64,000 bases of DNA. It comes from an uncultured Ferrovum sp. (GTDB lineage Bacteria; Pseudomonadota; Gammaproteobacteria; Burkholderiales; Ferrovaceae). Location of the stretch: contig CAITLJ010000019.1 of NCBI GenBank assembly GCA_903893215.1, positions 1 through 64,000 of the forward strand, in the 5' to 3' direction. Of this stretch, positions 31,190 through 38,962 are shown one piece after another (position 1 is the stretch's first letter; each line of letters opens with the position of its first letter). The notes under the pieces were generated by a model, which worked only from the letters and a program-made list of their open reading frames with translations, was not told where the DNA came from and ran no database searches. Position numbers and translations under genes: made by a program.

Positions 31190-32146
31190 TTAGTCGGGAT
31201 AGGGCAGGGTACGCAACTGGTGTTCCGACGCCAGTTGTTGCGCCACCGGCTGCTCGGCAATGGTCGACACAAAAGGCGCGCGGGCCTGCAACTGCTGGAA
31301 CGGAGCGGTTTGTGGTGCCGACTGTTGCGCCTGTGCCTGCTGGTCACTGTGCGTCGGGTAGGCTGCCGGCTGCGTGATGACTGGCGCGAGGGGGCTGGGT
31401 GCCTGTGGCGGCGGGGTGTTTGTCGATATGCCTGAGGTGATGGTGGATGGCGGTTGGCCCACCAGCGGTGCAAAATCGGCGGCGGTCCGGGTCAGCCAGG
31501 TCTTCACCCGCTGGCGTTCCAGAAATCCCAGCGCGCCATGCTCCTTTTCGGACGCATTGATCGCCGCCCAGAAGCTCAGGCTGAACTGGTCGATCTTTTG
31601 CATGGTCCCGTCGGGCAATTTGCGCAGTCGCACCACCTGCGCACCCCGATTGCGGGCACGCTGCAGTTCGCCGGAGGCTTCCAGCATGTCGAACGCCTCG
31701 CCGCGCAGTTCATTCAGCACGATCACCAGCTGCATGCGGCCACCGAACTGGTTGAGCAACCCGCGCAACAGATCGACACTGTCGCGGCCACAGTCCATCA
31801 CATGCCAGTACTTGAGCTGCAGGGCCATGTCGCCAGCCAGTTCGATCAGGTTCGAATCTTCGATCCAGCGTGCCAAAAAGGCATGCGTTTGCGCAGCCAG
31901 ATCGACCACCACCTGACGCTCCTGCGCCAGCGCCGCCTCGGCCACCCGGTCCAGCGCATCGTATTGATCCAGTACCACGGGCGTGGTGAACTCGGTGTAG
32001 AAGCGCAGCAGGGCGCCATGCGAGCGATCCGTATCGAAGCCTACGAATGGCAGGGCATTGTCGACCATGAATTGGGCAAGCAGACGCGCCACCACGGACT
32101 TGCCTACGCCGCCTTTTTCGCCACCAATGAAGTGGATCTGACTCAT
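31190..32146 (-). CDS. MinD/ParA-type ATPase with Pro/Gln-rich tail
   Basis: A 318-aa deviant-Walker ATPase. Residues 8-17 (GGEKGGVGKS) carry the signature lysine of the MinD/ParA family, GFDTDRSHG the switch region and QVVVDLAAQT the Walker B strand. The last 90 or so residues are rich in Pro, Gln, Ala and Thr and probably disordered. There is no C-terminal amphipathic MinD helix. Relatives are annotated as nucleotide-binding or mobilisation proteins; the function is unknown. The ATG at 32146 shares one base with the stop of the helicase-nuclease gene (TGATG), so translation is probably coupled to it. The longer frame to 32428 is antisense-like spill into that gene. Confidence 0.75.
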   Translation of the reverse strand: MSQIHFIGGEKGGVGKSVVARLLAQFMVDNALPFVGFDTDRSHGALLRFYTEFTTPVVLDQYDALDRVAEAALAQERQVVVDLAAQTHAFLARWIEDSNLIELAGDMALQLKYWHVMDCGRDSVDLLRGLLNQFGGRMQLVIVLNELRGEAFDMLEASGELQRARNRGAQVVRLRKLPDGTMQKIDQFSLSFWAAINASEKEHGALGFLERQRVKTWLTRTAADFAPLVGQPPSTITSGISTNTPPPQAPSPLAPVITQPAAYPTHSDQQAQAQQSAPQTAPFQQLQARAPFVSTIAEQPVAQQLASEHQLRTLPYPD

Positions 32147-35100
32147 CACGCGTTTCCTTTTTGGTCGCTGGACACATGCGACATCGCATGCTGCACAGCG
32201 ACAATAGCAGAAGCCATCGGCCTCGTGGGAGCGCCGGTGGGCTGGGCCGACGGGCCGATGCCCAGCGTGGCGAGGCGGGCCCGCAGTTCCTCGATCACCC
32301 GTTCCGGATGGGTGATCCAGTCCGCGGCAAAGCAACGCCAGACGATCCATCCGGCACGCTCCAGCACACGCTGACGGGCCATATCCTGCGCCCAGCGCTC
32401 GGGGCCATGATACTCGTCGCCATCGCACTCGATGGCGAGGCGGCGGTCGTTGGTTCCTTCCACCACCAGATCGATACGATGCACGCCCACCTGCACCTGC
32501 GGCACCACGCGAAACCCGTTACGCACCAGCGCCGTACACAGTTCGCGCTCGAAACTGCTGGTGCACCGCCCGATCAGCCCGGCCTGCGCCTGCACCGGGT
32601 CGACCACGGGCTCGGCGGTCTTGCCGAAGTGCTCCAGCAGGCCCAGCCGCAGGTCCTTTCCGCTCAGGTCGCTTGCCTGCACCGAGCGCACCAGGATCAT
32701 GCGGTCGCGCGCGCGGCTGGCAGCCACGTTGAAGCGTTGCTCGAACATTGCGCCGGACAGCGCCCGCGCATTGGTCGGGTCGACCACCAGGCTCAGAAAC
32801 AGGATATCGCGCTCGCTGCCTTGAAAGGTACGCGCATCGCCGCAGGCGAAATTCCGCCGTTGCAATTCAATCGGGTCGCAGCGGCTGCGCACCAGTGCGT
32901 CGATGGTCTTGGCTTGCTCGATGCCAAGCAGTGACACCACCCCCAGGGTGCGTCCCTGAAAGTGCGCATCTGCCAGCATCGTTTCGATTGCGCTGGTGAT
33001 CGCTGCGGCTTCCGCCAGATTGCGGTCCTTGCTGTCGCGTTTGCCGTCCGCCACAAACATGTCGATCAGCGGTGGGTCAAGCCGTTCGGACTGGGTCGGC
33101 ACGCGCAGCGGCTGGATCGCGCCACCGTAAAACGTGCGATTGGAATAGTCGATGATGGCCGGCACACAACGGAAGTGTTCGCGCAGCATGACCTGCTCGG
33201 CGGCAAACACCCGGGCAGCGAGGTCATACAGCGATTTTTCCGGGGTCATTTCCGTGCCGAAGGGCTGATCGGCAAGAAAGCGGTCACGCAATTCCTGGAT
33301 GCGCTCCGCCGAAATGAAACCGCTGTCCGGCGACACCTGGCGGTCGTCCCCCACTACCAGGATTTTCTTGCCACGCAGCACGGCAGGCAGCGCCCACAGG
33401 TCCGACTGGCTGGCCTCGTCGACAATCACCAGATCGAAGCGGCCAAGTTCGGCCGGCAGCGACTCGGACACCCGCGCATGGCTCATGATCCAGCATGGCA
33501 CGGCGCCGGCGGCATCCAGCATGGCTTCGCGTGCATCACGGCGATAACGCAGGGCGTTCGGTCCGGTGCCCTGGCCAATTTTGCGGATTGCCACGGCATA
33601 GCCGGCCAGCGCCTGCAGCACTTTTGGCGAAGCATTCCGCTTGGTCGCCAACCAGGCGGCCTGGGCGACCAGTTGAAGATACATTCTGGCGAGGTCGCTC
33701 TCCACGTCCTGGCGGCGTCGGGTCAGGGTGAGCAATTCGTCGTATCCGTCGATCTGCGTCAGATGACCGCGAATGCGCGACCAGGTCCAGGCAGCGCGCC
33801 AGTCATCCGGCAGCGCCGGATCCGGGGTGGTGCTGTCGGCCAGACTGGCATCACCTTCCCACTCGACGGTGCGCAAACGCAAGGCGAAGCGCGGCGCACC
33901 CGCCTGCTCTACCGCGTCGGCTGCGTCGCGAACGCACTGCAGGTCATCGGCGAGGCGCTCGATGCGGCGCAACTCGGCCAGCAGTTCTGCATAGCGGGCG
34001 ACCACCCGCTCGGCACTCACCTCGGGGTGGCCCAATTGGCTGTCGATGAATCCGCGCAGACGTGCCGACACCGAACCACCGGTGCCTGCCAGCGATTCCT
34101 GCAAGGCACCCAGCCCGGCCACCGCCTGCGCCAGATCCGCCCGGGTGAGATGCCGCACCAGATGCTCGCGCACTGCATTCAGTTCTTTCACGCCACCGCG
34201 CAGCAGGTCGGCGGGCACGTGTTCAAATACCGCCTGCGCTGCTGCTGGCAACTGTACGTCTTCGGTATTGGCAATCGCCACTGCCAACTGCGCGGTCACC
34301 GCAATCTGCTCCGCCGTGCGCAGCGCATCGGTGCCTGCCTGCAGGAGCGGCAGCTCCAACGTACCGGCGAACTGGTTCCAGCGCACCGTGAACGACAGGA
34401 TCTGATCGCGCAGGTCCACAAAGCGCAGCACATGACGCCAGTCGTCCGGCGTGGCGGGGGCGAGGCCAGCCACCCGGATAGCCGCCAGTTGGGCCTTGAG
34501 CTCGGCGCTGGCAATCGTCATCAGGCCGAGCGGCTTGCCGGTCTGGGTGGCGCGGGTGAGCGCCTCGCGCAAACGCGGGTTGTTGAAACCACTGTCCGGC
34601 AATTCCACCGGCCGCTTGAGAAAATCGAGCCTGGCCTCACTCAGTGCCGTGACGTCAGTGGACAGTGCGGCGAAGGCCGCCAGTTCTGCGGAGAAGGTCA
34701 CATTGCGGCTCTTATGGCGTAACGCCAGTGCCCAGGGGGCCTGCGCCGCTTCCAGCTGTTCCACGCGCTGGATGGCTGCCTCCAGCTGTGGCAACAAGGC
34801 ATGGGCTGCCGCCAGCACACTTGCGGTGGTGGACTGCAGGGGCAGCAGCTCGCCGCGGGTCACCTCACCTTCGATCGTGCGGATCTGCGCAAGCAGGCCG
34901 TGAAGCGCGGCGATTTCGGCCGAACCTGGCAGCTGGTCGGCGCGCGGCGTGCGCAACAGCAGATAGGGCAGGTCGCGTCCGATTCGACGCCGGGCCGCAC
35001 GCAGCCGGGTCTCGGCATCGGTATCGAGCGGTGGGGCGTGATGATCAAGCAGGCTCAGCGTATCGTCAAACCACCCGTGGCGGGCGGCCTCGCTGACGTA

Positions 35101-36636
35101 GCGGGTGGCCAGCGCGTGCGTGGCGATGCGCACGCCATCCAGGTCGGCACCGGACAATTGCTGCATGGCGATCGCGTCAATACGCTGGTCGACCGCACGT
35201 ATGTCCTCGTGCGCAGTCTCGATGGTGGCGCGCAACAGGTCGAGGTTTTCGCGTGCCTGCTCAGGCTGCAATTGCGACAGCCGATGCTGGATGATGGCCA
35301 CCGCCGCCTCGAACTGGCGCACGCTGCGGCGGTCGCTGGCGAGCAGGCCCACGGTTAGCGGGCGCACCTCGGCCGGGATTTTCTGTTGCAGCACGCGCAG
35401 GGCGGTCTCGCCGCGCGCTGTGACCAGCACACGCCGACCGGTGGCCAGGTAATGACAGATGATGTTGGCGATGGTGTGCGTCTTGCCGGTGCCGGGTGGT
35501 CCCTGCACCGTCACGCCAGCCGCGTGTTCCAGCCGTTGCGCGATGGTCACCTGCTCCTGATTGTAGGGCAGCGGAAAATACAGGTCCTGCGCTGTGCCAC
35601 TGAGCGGGTCGCTGCGGCTGGATACCCCACGGAAATTCACCGCGACCGGCTGGTTGGCCAGCTCGGCGGGGGGCGTGACCAGCGCCGCCGGGCCGGGCGG
35701 CAGCGGGCCTTCCCCGGCCAGATGCTCCTGCAGGCGGAGCACATCCTCGGTGAGGTAGCTGGTGGCGCGCGGTCGCACGAACAGCGCCCAGCGATCTGTC
35801 ACGACCAGATGGTCACCAGCCACCGGCACTGGCACGGCGGCGTCCGCCATGATGCGATACACCCCCTCGCTGTCCAGCGAGCCGGCCACCATCCGCAGTA
35901 CGTCCTCGAAGCTGCTGGCATCAAAAGGATTGACCGGGCGGTCCTGCGTGCGCATCAGTTGGGCACGGCAGGCCGTATCAAGGTCGCTGGCTCCCGGAAT
36001 CTGGCTTGCGATGTAGGCGTCCAGCTCCAGCACGGTATCCGTGGCACGCGGACGCAGTTCGATGGCCAGACTGCGCTCATCGAGGTTGATTTCCATTGCC
36101 TGGGTCAGCACCGGGTATTCCAGCGGGATCGGGCCATCGGGGTGCGGCAGTCGCCAGCTGGCAATACCGATACCCCACACCAGTTCCTGCGGCTTGGCCG
36201 TTTCGTCAGCCTCGAGCTGGTGCTGCAGCGCAAACAATTCGCCATACAGGGCGATGGTGCGGCGGCGTGGCAGCTCGGCGTTGGCCCAGACCAGCCAGGC
36301 ATCGGTGTAGCTTGCCAGGATGGCGCGGCCTTGGGGTGCCGCGTAGTCCAGCAGGGAGGGCAGCGGTCCCTCGGGATCGGCGCTCACCTGCAGCAAGTCC
36401 TGCTGTTCGGTCGGCACGTCTGGCGGCGCCACCGGATCCAGTCGCGCCACGCGCAGCCAGATGTGATCGCCGGCCTCGAGCAGATTGAATTCCACCCCAG
36501 GCAGGTTGATCAGCGCCTGCGGACGTTTGACGAAGATACCGCTGGCTGGCATCCGATAGGAACGCGGGTTGATGTCGCGCGCCTGCTCGATGATGTACTC
36601 AAGCAGGCGGTGCAGCAGGTTGCGCGGGTCGGTCAC
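32146..36636 (-). CDS. Large SF1 helicase with C-terminal Vsr-like nuclease domain
   Basis: A protein of about 1,496 aa. The N-terminal ~350 residues match no domain I recognise. The helicase core starts with Walker A GPPGTGKT near residue 380, followed by a long helical insertion, DEAD-like Walker B VIVDEASQSD, GDDRQVSPD, GSERDILFLSLV and NVAASRARDRM, as in DNA2/UPF1-type SF1 helicases. The last ~110 residues form a PD-(D/E)xK fold of the Vsr/MTES_1575 type (ERELCTALVRNGF, HRIDLVV, AIECDGDEYHG). Helicase-Vsr fusions such as Hhe are known antiphage proteins. GTG at 36636 has GGAG 6 bp upstream and is preferred over the TTG at 36660. Codon use matches the chromosome. Confidence 0.8.
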   Translation of the reverse strand: MTDPRNLLHRLLEYIIEQARDINPRSYRMPASGIFVKRPQALINLPGVEFNLLEAGDHIWLRVARLDPVAPPDVPTEQQDLLQVSADPEGPLPSLLDYAAPQGRAILASYTDAWLVWANAELPRRRTIALYGELFALQHQLEADETAKPQELVWGIGIASWRLPHPDGPIPLEYPVLTQAMEINLDERSLAIELRPRATDTVLELDAYIASQIPGASDLDTACRAQLMRTQDRPVNPFDASSFEDVLRMVAGSLDSEGVYRIMADAAVPVPVAGDHLVVTDRWALFVRPRATSYLTEDVLRLQEHLAGEGPLPPGPAALVTPPAELANQPVAVNFRGVSSRSDPLSGTAQDLYFPLPYNQEQVTIAQRLEHAAGVTVQGPPGTGKTHTIANIICHYLATGRRVLVTARGETALRVLQQKIPAEVRPLTVGLLASDRRSVRQFEAAVAIIQHRLSQLQPEQARENLDLLRATIETAHEDIRAVDQRIDAIAMQQLSGADLDGVRIATHALATRYVSEAARHGWFDDTLSLLDHHAPPLDTDAETRLRAARRRIGRDLPYLLLRTPRADQLPGSAEIAALHGLLAQIRTIEGEVTRGELLPLQSTTASVLAAAHALLPQLEAAIQRVEQLEAAQAPWALALRHKSRNVTFSAELAAFAALSTDVTALSEARLDFLKRPVELPDSGFNNPRLREALTRATQTGKPLGLMTIASAELKAQLAAIRVAGLAPATPDDWRHVLRFVDLRDQILSFTVRWNQFAGTLELPLLQAGTDALRTAEQIAVTAQLAVAIANTEDVQLPAAAQAVFEHVPADLLRGGVKELNAVREHLVRHLTRADLAQAVAGLGALQESLAGTGGSVSARLRGFIDSQLGHPEVSAERVVARYAELLAELRRIERLADDLQCVRDAADAVEQAGAPRFALRLRTVEWEGDASLADSTTPDPALPDDWRAAWTWSRIRGHLTQIDGYDELLTLTRRRQDVESDLARMYLQLVAQAAWLATKRNASPKVLQALAGYAVAIRKIGQGTGPNALRYRRDAREAMLDAAGAVPCWIMSHARVSESLPAELGRFDLVIVDEASQSDLWALPAVLRGKKILVVGDDRQVSPDSGFISAERIQELRDRFLADQPFGTEMTPEKSLYDLAARVFAAEQVMLREHFRCVPAIIDYSNRTFYGGAIQPLRVPTQSERLDPPLIDMFVADGKRDSKDRNLAEAAAITSAIETMLADAHFQGRTLGVVSLLGIEQAKTIDALVRSRCDPIELQRRNFACGDARTFQGSERDILFLSLVVDPTNARALSGAMFEQRFNVAASRARDRMILVRSVQASDLSGKDLRLGLLEHFGKTAEPVVDPVQAQAGLIGRCTSSFERELCTALVRNGFRVVPQVQVGVHRIDLVVEGTNDRRLAIECDGDEYHGPERWAQDMARQRVLERAGWIVWRCFAADWITHPERVIEELRARLATLGIGPSAQPTGAPTRPMASAIVAVQHAMSHVSSDQKGNA

Positions 36637-36875: not shown

Positions 36876-38159
36876 TCAAGTCGTTGACCTGACCCAGTCA
36901 GGCTGAAACTGCTGAATCTGCTCTGCTTCAGCGTCCGGCACGCCAGCCTCGCGCGCAAACTTCGGCCACCTGGCCACTGCGTCGCATACCTTTTGGAGCC
37001 TATCGCGAGGTGACGAGACGTCGTAGGTTTTGGCGAATTCAATCAGGTCTTCCGCTGTTATGCCCCACTCCTTTCCCCCGAGCCTCATCTGATGCGTTTG
37101 CGTCCATTTTCCCGTCGCCGGGTTGTGGGAAAAGCAAGCGTCATAGGCTGGCGCCAGATTCCACTTTCCCGCCTTGTCCATCAAGAACGCGAGATTTTTC
37201 GTGTGGTCGTCGCAGTTGACCGCGGCAATGTTGAACGCGCACCGGGTCCAAGCCTGGGCTACAGCCGTTGCGTCCAACTTAAGCCCAAGCACGGCCCGCA
37301 TGTACTGGTCGTAACTATGGATACGCGGCATGTTGAAGTCCAGGTGCATCAGAGCACAGAGAGACTGCATGTGCAGCTTCTCGTTGCCAATGCGGTCAAA
37401 TCGCTTGGTCATAAAGTGAGCGCGGCCACCCTCTTCGAGGATTTTGCAGTCACTCATGTCCACCCCAGCTTCAAGCGCCATCAGATAGTGGGCGTATTCA
37501 ACCCGCCCGAATCCTGCGGTGGTTCCGAGCTGTCCGTCGGCGCCGACGTCAAATTTCAGCAGCCAGTGCTCAAAGCCTTCGGGAACGTCAAATTGACCCG
37601 AGACTACCTGTTCGGTCTTCTGGTTCCAGCCGATTACGGCTTTGGCCCGCGCGCCGCCTGCTGAGCTTCCGATGTCGATAATGTCTTGAGCGATTGCAGA
37701 GAACTCACCTTTGAGAGCTCGTCTCGCGTCTTCGACAATTTGCGCCATATCAAGAGGTACCGATGCCGCATCGCCTCGCAGGTCTTGCTCTGCGGGCTCA
37801 AATTCCAGGGCGCCCATGCTTCGGCGTCCGACATTAAGCAGCCGCTGGAGCGTGGTGACGTCTGTCTTGCTGGTACCTTTTCGAGCAAGATATTCGTCAA
37901 TCAGCGCATTGCCGAATTTATCGGGGAGCGCGTCAGCCAGCAGGCCTGGAAGACCGTGGAACGTTTCCGTGGCCAGCGTTGGAAACCTGAACACACGCCG
38001 GGATTTCAGCTTCATCAGCAAAGGAGCCACTTCGAGTCCTGACGCCTCGAACTCAGGTGCAAAGCTAAAATCATAGAACCCGGGCTTTCCCGCCGCAGGG
38101 GCTACCGCACCCACGAACTTCCCGAACATGTTCACCCTGACAACCTTTACGTCAGCCAT
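36876..38159 (-). CDS. hipA: HipA-family serine/threonine kinase toxin
   Basis: A 427-aa HipA-like kinase. E. coli HipA phosphorylates glutamyl-tRNA synthetase and causes growth arrest. Visible motifs are the Gly-rich loop GSSAGGARAKA (164-174) with the regulatory serines, catalytic Asp317 in NCDDHTKN and metal-binding Asp340 in APAYDACFS. All key residues are present, so the kinase should be active. The start ATG is 5 bp downstream of the hipB-like stop. The gene is visibly more AT-rich than its neighbours, a sign of transfer. About 180 bp of sequence without an obvious gene separates its end from the terminator. Confidence 0.9.
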   Translation of the reverse strand: MADVKVVRVNMFGKFVGAVAPAAGKPGFYDFSFAPEFEASGLEVAPLLMKLKSRRVFRFPTLATETFHGLPGLLADALPDKFGNALIDEYLARKGTSKTDVTTLQRLLNVGRRSMGALEFEPAEQDLRGDAASVPLDMAQIVEDARRALKGEFSAIAQDIIDIGSSAGGARAKAVIGWNQKTEQVVSGQFDVPEGFEHWLLKFDVGADGQLGTTAGFGRVEYAHYLMALEAGVDMSDCKILEEGGRAHFMTKRFDRIGNEKLHMQSLCALMHLDFNMPRIHSYDQYMRAVLGLKLDATAVAQAWTRCAFNIAAVNCDDHTKNLAFLMDKAGKWNLAPAYDACFSHNPATGKWTQTHQMRLGGKEWGITAEDLIEFAKTYDVSSPRDRLQKVCDAVARWPKFAREAGVPDAEAEQIQQFQPDWVRSTT

Positions 38160-38164
38160 TTTGG

Positions 38165-38497
38165 CTATCCCCTGATTTTTCTCGGCGCGCGCTTGCGAGC
38201 CTGCTTCGCCCGTTTTTCCTCTTGTGCCAGTATGTCTAGCGGGCCGGGTAGCGCCGGGTCGGGGACGAGGGTTATCGCGTTTTCCAAGAGGTTCGTCGCC
38301 CGCAGAATTGCGATAAGGTTTCTCAAGGTAATTGCTCCAGTCTTTTCGAAGCGCTTCAGGGGTGTCAGCCCAATCCCGCTAGCCTCGGCAAGGTCCAGCT
38401 GGGACATGCCGGCACCGTTCGGCGAGATGCGCCAGGCCTTGACGGCCTCGGCGATGCGCAGGGCCACTTCGTCGTTGCTGAGCTGATACGCATCCAT
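38165..38497 (-). CDS. hipB: HipB-like XRE-family antitoxin/repressor
   Basis: A 110-aa DNA-binding protein with a helix-turn-helix at residues 31-65 (MSQLDLAEASGIGLTPLKRFEKTG). Its basic C-terminal tail, KRAKQARKRAPRKIRG, could neutralise or tether HipA. It probably represses its own operon through the palindromic boxes that begin 2 bp upstream of the start codon. No ribosome-binding site is seen, and box 1 occupies the place where one would lie. Confidence 0.88.
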   Translation of the reverse strand: MDAYQLSNDEVALRIAEAVKAWRISPNGAGMSQLDLAEASGIGLTPLKRFEKTGAITLRNLIAILRATNLLENAITLVPDPALPGPLDILAQEEKRAKQARKRAPRKIRG

Positions 38498-38886: not shown

Positions 38887-38962
38887 TGGCTCCCCGACCT
38901 GGGCTCGAACCAGGGACCTGCGGATTAACAGTCCGTCGCTCTACCGACTGAGCTATCGAGGA
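38887..38962 (-). tRNA. tRNA-Asn (anticodon GTT)
   Basis: A 76-nt cloverleaf on the minus strand. The acceptor arm TCCTCGA pairs with TCGGGGA, including a T-G wobble. The D arm contains AGCTCAGTCGGTAGAGC, the anticodon loop CTGTTAA gives GTT, and the T arm contains GGTTCGAGCC. The CCA end is encoded (38887-38889). Confidence 0.96.

Follow-up and report, generated by a model that had tools for sequence, protein, structure and literature searches.

An Upf1-like helicase-nuclease in an uncultured Ferrovum genome probably acts without the ATPase that adjoins it

Background

Giant proteins that join a superfamily 1 (SF1) helicase to a Vsr-type nuclease have been proposed to act in defence (PMC3710099, in the part consulted). 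Among ATPases of the ParA/Soj/MinD type, TraL of RP4 and MobD of pTF-FC2 have been grouped with StbB under the motif KGGXXK[T/S], and StbB of R388 acts in conjugation (PMC3098194, likewise in part). Genes resembling both kinds lie next to each other in a 64,000-nucleotide (nt) stretch, hereafter the window, of an uncultured Ferrovum sp. (assembly GCA_903893215.1, contig CAITLJ010000019.1, positions 1 to 64,000), which is part of contig C19 in a 3.27-Mb genome of 84 contigs. A first-pass annotation of this DNA had put the helicase-nuclease and the ATPase forward as a candidate two-gene system. The analysis reported here favours instead, with a probability of roughly 0.6, a stand-alone helicase-nuclease that would serve as a one-protein means of defence or genome surveillance, with the ATPase a neighbour by shared inheritance. 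The helicase has recognisable domains with intact motifs, evolves under purifying selection, is spread patchily across phyla and onto plasmids, and has no fixed partner in the loci seen.

Domains and motifs of the helicase-nuclease

The protein couples an SF1 motor of the Upf1-like kind to a Vsr/MTES_1575-type nuclease that is intact, and the first-pass annotation had recognised both halves correctly. Specifically, Pfam places AAA_11, AAA_12, AAA_30 and AAA_19 above cut-off in a protein that has Walker A, Walker B and motif VI, and the nuclease profile MTES_1575 (PF18741) scores 105.4 bits against a cut-off of 38.2, with the acidic residues kept and a matching fold. The nuclease domain retains the conserved D of RIDLVV and IECDGD (E-x-D-G-D), and motif and nuclease residues are maintained across 29 sequences of the clade. 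Wholly or largely kept are GPPGTGKT (from residue 379), VDEASQSD (1072), GDDRQVSP (1096), REHFRC (1152) and VAASRA (1304) in the helicase, and RIDLVV (1387), IECDGD (1402) and RQRVLERAGW (1421) in the nuclease.

The best solved match to a helicase profile of these 29 sequences is Upf1 (E 1.2e-11). The AlphaFold model of residues 343-1496 (mean predicted local distance difference test, pLDDT, 72.6; predicted template modelling score, pTM, 0.41) returns Senataxin and Ighmbp2 in Foldseek at E 1e-3, with long coiled-coil chains scoring alike at low probability. In VIA-align the same model reaches Z 11.6-12.8 with Ighmbp2, Upf1, Sen1 and Dna2, at a root-mean-square deviation (rmsd) of 16-19 over ~270-320 residues, and unrelated NS3 helicases attain equally high Z over 106-126 residues with low rmsd. 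The predicted model thus shows a RecA core, and the kinship to Upf1 rests on sequence. For the last 100 residues, VIA-align gives Z 12.4 with the homing endonuclease I-Bth0305I (95 residues at rmsd 2.4) and Z 12.0 with NGO0050 (90 residues at rmsd 1.8 and 27% identity).

Upf1-like SF1 helicases have an N-terminal stalk and a 1B domain. The N-terminal region of the window protein had been left without a family at first reading, and so it stays: Pfam at E ≤ 0.1 gives no match ahead of residue 366 of the 1,504-residue open reading frame (ORF), and structure prediction followed by Foldseek and VIA-align gave no convincing solved match. AlphaFold produces a fair model, with residues 1-290 mostly well predicted, for which Foldseek finds nothing at E ≤ 0.001 (best E 0.33) and VIA-align finds, at best, a Z-ring associated protein at Z 4.2 over just 40 residues. 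Against Upf1 (9qdq_A) the match is weak (VIA-align Z 3.3, 143 residues, rmsd 8.6). A stalk and a 1B-like barrel are suspected in this region, which the structure matches do not show; that the clade has a novel sensor fold here is a more remote possibility.

Distribution of the helicase

One scan of GTDB contigs yielded 31 helicase loci, at 47-67% identity in the best segment except for a single locus (L032) at 37%; the closest relative, at 67%, lies on another contig of an uncultured Ferrovum sp. (L021). Two of the five genomes of the genus carry the helicase, and any match is found in 85 of the 399 genomes of the order, many of these matches being partial and distant. Relatives cross phyla and reach plasmids. 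In a tree of 68 rows (66 different), built by a quick method with SH-aLRT support only and with Hhe outside it, the window protein falls into a group of 35 rows that mixes Pseudomonadota, Acidobacteriota, Chlorobiota, Chloroflexota and Bacteroidota (by record titles) with a Variovorax plasmid; the ten ProA/PDC-S37 rows (eight different) form one supported group on a long branch from the others. The IMG/VR phage records gave no relative of either the helicase or the ATPase in a search with few patterns from one sequence each. The helicase belongs to a distinct clade that occurs in several phyla as well as on plasmids, and its match to the defence models tried is weak.

Neighbourhood and co-occurrence

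The proposed two-gene system is rejected, as neither neighbourhood nor co-occurrence counts support it. The neighbourhood survey covered 66 stretches from the GTDB scan, the numbered genomes (G) and four plasmids, 65 of them with a helicase ORF: L032, which has none, was dropped, L033, which duplicates the L021 locus, was not counted a second time, and L028 (split frame) as well as L030, L022 and L014 (cut by contig ends) were kept. Beside the helicase, ORFs bearing a deviant Walker A motif occur solely in the window and at the single locus L021/L033. Such an ATPase adjoins the helicase in 0 of the 62 other rows, a set that includes near-copies (three from Chromobacterium) as well as remote relatives scoring as low as 284 bits (L103), and in which 56 rows have at least 1 kb of downstream sequence and six have less than 1 kb. 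On one stretch (L114), at a distance of 4.8 kb from the helicase, there is a plasmid ParA adjoining ParB. A profile of the ATPase family, run over L001-L111, matched no helicase locus beyond L021, and no neighbouring family was shared by more than 4 of 31 helicase rows.

The same picture emerges from the side of the ATPase, close relatives of which (~43% identity or more) are present in 12 other genomes: two of the genus, eight of the order (in G192 the relative is fragmented) and a further two of the class. In stretches of 3.7 to 19 kb, a helicase lies near the ATPase relative in one of these genomes (G002) and is absent from the stretches of the other 11. Across the 399 genomes of the order, at E ≤ 0.001, the ATPase is matched in 28 and the helicase in 85, and both are matched in seven (G000, G107, G192, G234, G240, G280 and G371), where 28 x 85 / 399 = 6.0 would be expected. 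None of the eight other genomes of the order with a close ATPase has a full-length helicase match; G192, G280 and G371 have distant partial ones. Conserved adjacency or co-occurrence beyond one lineage was thus not found in these surveys. The first-pass annotation had asked for a gene-neighbourhood survey and had named a pair seen by chance in one lineage as the outcome that would speak against it, and so far the pair is seen only in the window genome and one congener. Chance adjacency followed by shared inheritance is the best account of it.

Comparison with a second species

A second species of the genus (G002, with L021, L033 and L043 as the same locus) has yaeQ, ATPase, helicase and tRNA-Asn in the order found in the window, with other genes in place of hipBA. 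Between the two species the helicase is 67.7% and the ATPase 73.6% identical. The ratio of nonsynonymous to synonymous divergence (dN/dS), obtained by a simple counting method at a dS near 1, is 0.23 for the helicase, 0.20 for the ATPase and 0.16 for yaeQ, with dS values of 1.07, 0.92 and 1.03, respectively. The first two ratios mark the helicase and the ATPase as constrained genes, and the similarity of the three dS values fits joint inheritance; it also bears out the earlier impression, drawn from codon use, that the helicase is native to its genome. The simplest reading of this comparison is that the two genes have probably been neighbours since the common ancestor and that both are likely to be functional.

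The overlap that had suggested translational coupling is present: in the window, both genes lie on the minus strand, and the TGA that ends the helicase shares its A, within TGATG, with the ATG that opens the ATPase. In the second species, 143 nt separate the two genes with no TGATG overlap, and the ATPase, of 235 residues, stops at residue 235 without a Pro/Gln tail. The features that suggested a system are therefore not conserved, and the stop-start overlap, missing from the second species, need not signify joint function. The helicase of G002 begins at an aligned GTG, which supports the GTG start chosen at 36636. Within the 143-nt gap, at L043:9870-9960, lie several near-copies of CCCTAACC, which resemble a short repeat.

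The ATPase

The adjoining protein is a MinD/ParA-type ATPase, as it was first called, with the deviant Walker A motif KGGVGKS at residues 11-17. Its Pfam match to CbiA, at 22.0 bits, lies below the cut-off of 25.4, and its best NCBIfam match, TraL (NF010461), reaches 40.3 bits against a curated cut-off of 360, so that membership in TraL was rejected. Relatives on plasmids amount to 35 records, mostly annotated as mobilization protein or MobD-like, with an identity of at most ~35% and none covering 80% of the query; we take their hosts to be cyanobacteria.

The near neighbours of the window ATPase are the helicase, HipBA, a tetratricopeptide repeat (TPR) protein and YaeQ. In G001 the ATPase adjoins genes read by eye as rpsP, rimM, trmD and rplS, on a contig with 590 bp left upstream, which hold another gene, and among the other relatives the neighbours change from locus to locus. 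No relaxase or stb neighbour was recognised in the ATPase stretches looked at, oriT not being searched for. Solitary ATPases of the StbB/TraL/MobD type, at ~43-59% identity, occur in the same order and class in differing settings, with no plasmid transfer genes recognised nearby (Table 1). Judged by its sequence and surroundings, the window ATPase is apparently a solitary chromosomal protein of this type. In G371, a HipA-like ORF (L109:8837-10135, named by eye) lies directly upstream of the ATPase homologue; this HipA did not match that of the window, and a link between Hip proteins and the ATPase was set aside as chance.

Defence context of helicase relatives

Some relatives of the helicase keep company with defence genes. 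On the Acinetobacter johnsonii plasmid CP090417.1 (L115, 24183-28913), a relative at 34% identity comes directly after brxL, in the same orientation, where a BREX locus ends; on a Sphingobium plasmid, one at 38% identity follows a restriction endonuclease; and on a Variovorax plasmid, one at 52% identity lies near GIY-YIG and AbiE genes. For a second Variovorax plasmid with a helicase relative, reading the neighbours revealed no named defence system. Many plasmids of Acinetobacter pittii also carry genes related to the helicase.

PADLOC scans at E ≤ 1e-10 took in 106 ORFs near helicase relatives (54 + 52), made up of 105 of 207 neighbourhood ORFs and L028:9007-10554, a fragment of the helicase itself, and, as a control, 69 of 76 ORFs near ATPase relatives. 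L004, L010, L011, L021, L026 and L027, together with part of the ORFs from other loci, were omitted from the helicase set; L019, L023 and L024, all from one genus, were kept. Among the matches listed for this set, which for its 52-ORF half cover 25 of 72 families, are a class I prokaryotic Argonaute (pAgo; 2.5e-200), PDC-M30B, PDC-M41B, a reverse transcriptase (RT)-associated helicase and two type II methyltransferases. An enrichment in defence islands is not claimed, because the control also gave matches and the sets, compared as tallies, differ in size and choice.

Gene order and flanking genes

On the minus strand, the genes run from a HipB-like protein through hipA and the helicase-nuclease to the ATPase (Table 1). 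Farther out, a TPR protein and yaeQ flank these genes at one end; at the other lie tRNA-Asn, an aminotransferase (read by eye) and uvrB. The tRNA-Asn is followed by other genes in G001 and G003 (L130, L131), and in G004 the contig ends. In G003, an ORF downstream of tRNA-Asn (L131:3158-4372) reads like an AAA/ABC-type ATPase.

Table 1 Features of the helicase-ATPase locus, in window coordinates, and solitary ATPase loci of other genomes, as genome:contig
Feature	Location	Strand	Remarks
Deviant-Walker ATPase, 318 residues, StbB/TraL/MobD type	31190..32146	-	Pro/Gln-rich tail from ~residue 235
Helicase-nuclease gene, 1,496 residues	32146..36636	-	GTG start at 36636, stop TGA 32148-32146
MTES_1575/Vsr-type nuclease domain, residues 1362-1455	32272..32553	-	Pfam, VIA-align, invariant residues
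Motif VI VAASRA, residues 1304-1309	32710..32727	-	
Walker B / motif II VDEASQSD, residues 1072-1079	33400..33423	-	
Mostly helical stretch of ~600 residues between motifs I and II (approx. 436-1042)	33511..35331	-	Model of 343-1496, pTM 0.41
Walker A / motif I GPPGTGKT, residues 379-386	35479..35502	-	
N-terminal region, residues 1-343	35608..36636	-	Conserved in clade; predicted alpha/beta domain
HipA-type kinase, upstream neighbour of helicase	36876..38159	-	Pfam HipA_C 154 bits; not found in second-species locus
HipB-like helix-turn-helix (HTH) protein	38165..38497	-	Weak HTH_3 and couple_hipB matches, below cut-off
tRNA-Asn	38887..38962	-	Edge of stretch variable within genus
Solitary ATPase loci	G001:C67, G126:C25, G157:C92, G192:C1, G261:C93, G280:C4		
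Solitary ATPase loci, continued	G288:C1, G371:C17, G397:C1, G555:C12, G780:C1		

Competing explanations

In the model that we consider most likely, the N-terminal domain together with the extended helical insert would recognise, or load onto, abnormal nucleic acid, the SF1 motor would translocate on it at the expense of ATP, and the nuclease tethered to the motor would cut it. The role in defence, DNA or RNA as the substrate, 5'-3' polarity, which we infer because of the kinship to Upf1, and the order of these steps are all put forward conditionally. The ATPase would have become a neighbour of the helicase in an ancestor of the genus and would then have been inherited with the locus.

Several observations weigh against this explanation. 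The defence role is argued from kinship and neighbourhood, and would have to bear that a defence island around the helicase in the window genome is not shown, that the relatives beside BREX or a restriction endonuclease are distant (34-38% identity), and that the PADLOC control set gave matches as well, to SspH, mad8, PDC-M68A, SduA and endonuclease-effector families (best 5.9e-57). Some phylum labels come from short metagenome-assembled contigs, such as a 6.4-kb Chloroflexi contig, and are possibly misbinned. Both members of the genus with the helicase have the ATPase adjoining in the same orientation, and retention in two species at a dN/dS of 0.23 also fits a housekeeping role. Such an enzyme, devoted to housekeeping or stress-time repair or surveillance and with an unrelated ATPase beside it, would suit a long-resident gene of low dN/dS that counts Upf1, Sen1, Ighmbp2 and Dna2 among its nearest solved structures; we nevertheless consider it unlikely, given how patchy the gene is (matches of any kind in 85 of the order's 399 genomes, and the gene in two of five of the genus) and that it crosses phyla, reaches plasmids and has relatives adjoining BREX or restriction genes.

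A pair specific to this lineage, in which the StbB/MobD-type ATPase would regulate the helicase-nuclease or position it at the nucleoid, the pole or incoming conjugative DNA, appears distinctly improbable. It can draw on the identical order and strand at the same locus in two species with both genes constrained, on the stop-start overlap in one of the two, and on the conjugative function of R388 StbB, the protein grouped with TraL and MobD (PMC3098194, in part). But the arrangement is confined to one lineage that has kept yaeQ and tRNA-Asn too, so that adjacency follows from shared inheritance; the second species has the 143-nt gap and lacks the tail; and, within the stretches covered, the ATPase occurs without the helicase in 11 of 12 other genomes, as does the helicase without an adjoining ATPase in 62 other rows. 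Very improbable, too, is a variable cassette of HipBA, helicase and ATPase that a mobile element would have brought to the tRNA-Asn: G001 and G003 have other genes beyond the tRNA, and G002 has partly other ones than the window, but the dS of helicase and ATPase is about equal to that of yaeQ, and a Pfam scan of 15 window proteins showed no integrase, attachment-site repeats not being searched for. That a conjugation-type ATPase might have been recruited into an operon, where it would steer the nuclease to conjugation entry sites or the nucleoid as a one-lineage two-gene anti-plasmid system, is a long shot.

Under the stand-alone helicase-nuclease, the explanation preferred here, a likely false two-gene system is removed from the candidates, and the stop-start overlap turns out to be poor evidence of a system once relatives are compared. 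What remains is an uncharacterised clade of Upf1-like helicase-nucleases that, as a single gene, is directly testable. The ATPase, in turn, draws attention to a few chromosomal, solitary ATPases of the StbB/MobD type that occur without a plasmid.

Comparison with known systems

The closest named families are ProA (NF058533) and PDC-S37 of PADLOC, both of which, like the window protein, combine an SF1 helicase, a long insert and a nuclease, and neither of which matches its N-terminal part. In the 1,504-residue ORF, the ProA profile covers residues 357-1481. Membership was rejected, with 223.9 bits (218.7 in the genome) against an NCBIfam cut-off of 1500; over 200 genomes of the order, ten genomes exceed that cut-off, all with at least 1972 bits. 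For PDC-S37, PADLOC prints no cut-off, and membership was judged by a full-length match to the profile: just positions 298-357 and 918-1342 of its 1,550 are matched in the window genome, and the whole protein scores 213 bits (best genome piece 173), whereas the six highest-scoring loci reach 1150-1355, so this family was rejected as well. Hhe (NF042953, PADLOC PDLC02194), the known single-gene family with which the helicase had initially been compared, aligns to the second half of the helicase and to the nuclease at 167.9 bits against a curated cut-off of 2000, and DUF4011, the domain in the Hhe family name, is absent among the Pfam matches at E ≤ 0.1. The window protein thus lies below the curated cut-offs of both Hhe and ProA and, by score, belongs to neither.

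In the literature, by titles, term counts and the openings of abstracts, no paper was found on this helicase clade, on an anti-phage ProA or with the term PDC-S37, and in the text of PMC12839542 the terms Upf1, Vsr, SF1 and MTES were found once, inside the reference list. The ATPase shares the KGGXXK[T/S] motif of the ParA/MinD kind with StbB, TraL of RP4 and MobD of pTF-FC2 (PMC3098194, in the part consulted); it differs from them in being apparently chromosomal and outside any recognised stb or mob operon.

Two further comparisons concern the architecture of the helicase-nuclease, and for the second of them it matters that Hel308 is an SF2 helicase. The giant MTES_1575-type HEPN-helicase-Vsr proteins also join an SF1 helicase to the same restriction endonuclease family, but they carry HEPN, transglutaminase and winged-helix (DUF3320) domains (PMC3710099, in part), none of which Pfam matched in the window helicase. 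Hachiman HamAB differs in consisting of two separate proteins, of which HamB has been compared with Hel308, and membership is not claimed; but its division of labour, in which the helicase senses and the nuclease cuts, offers a model for the fused protein described here (PMC12278908, in the part consulted).

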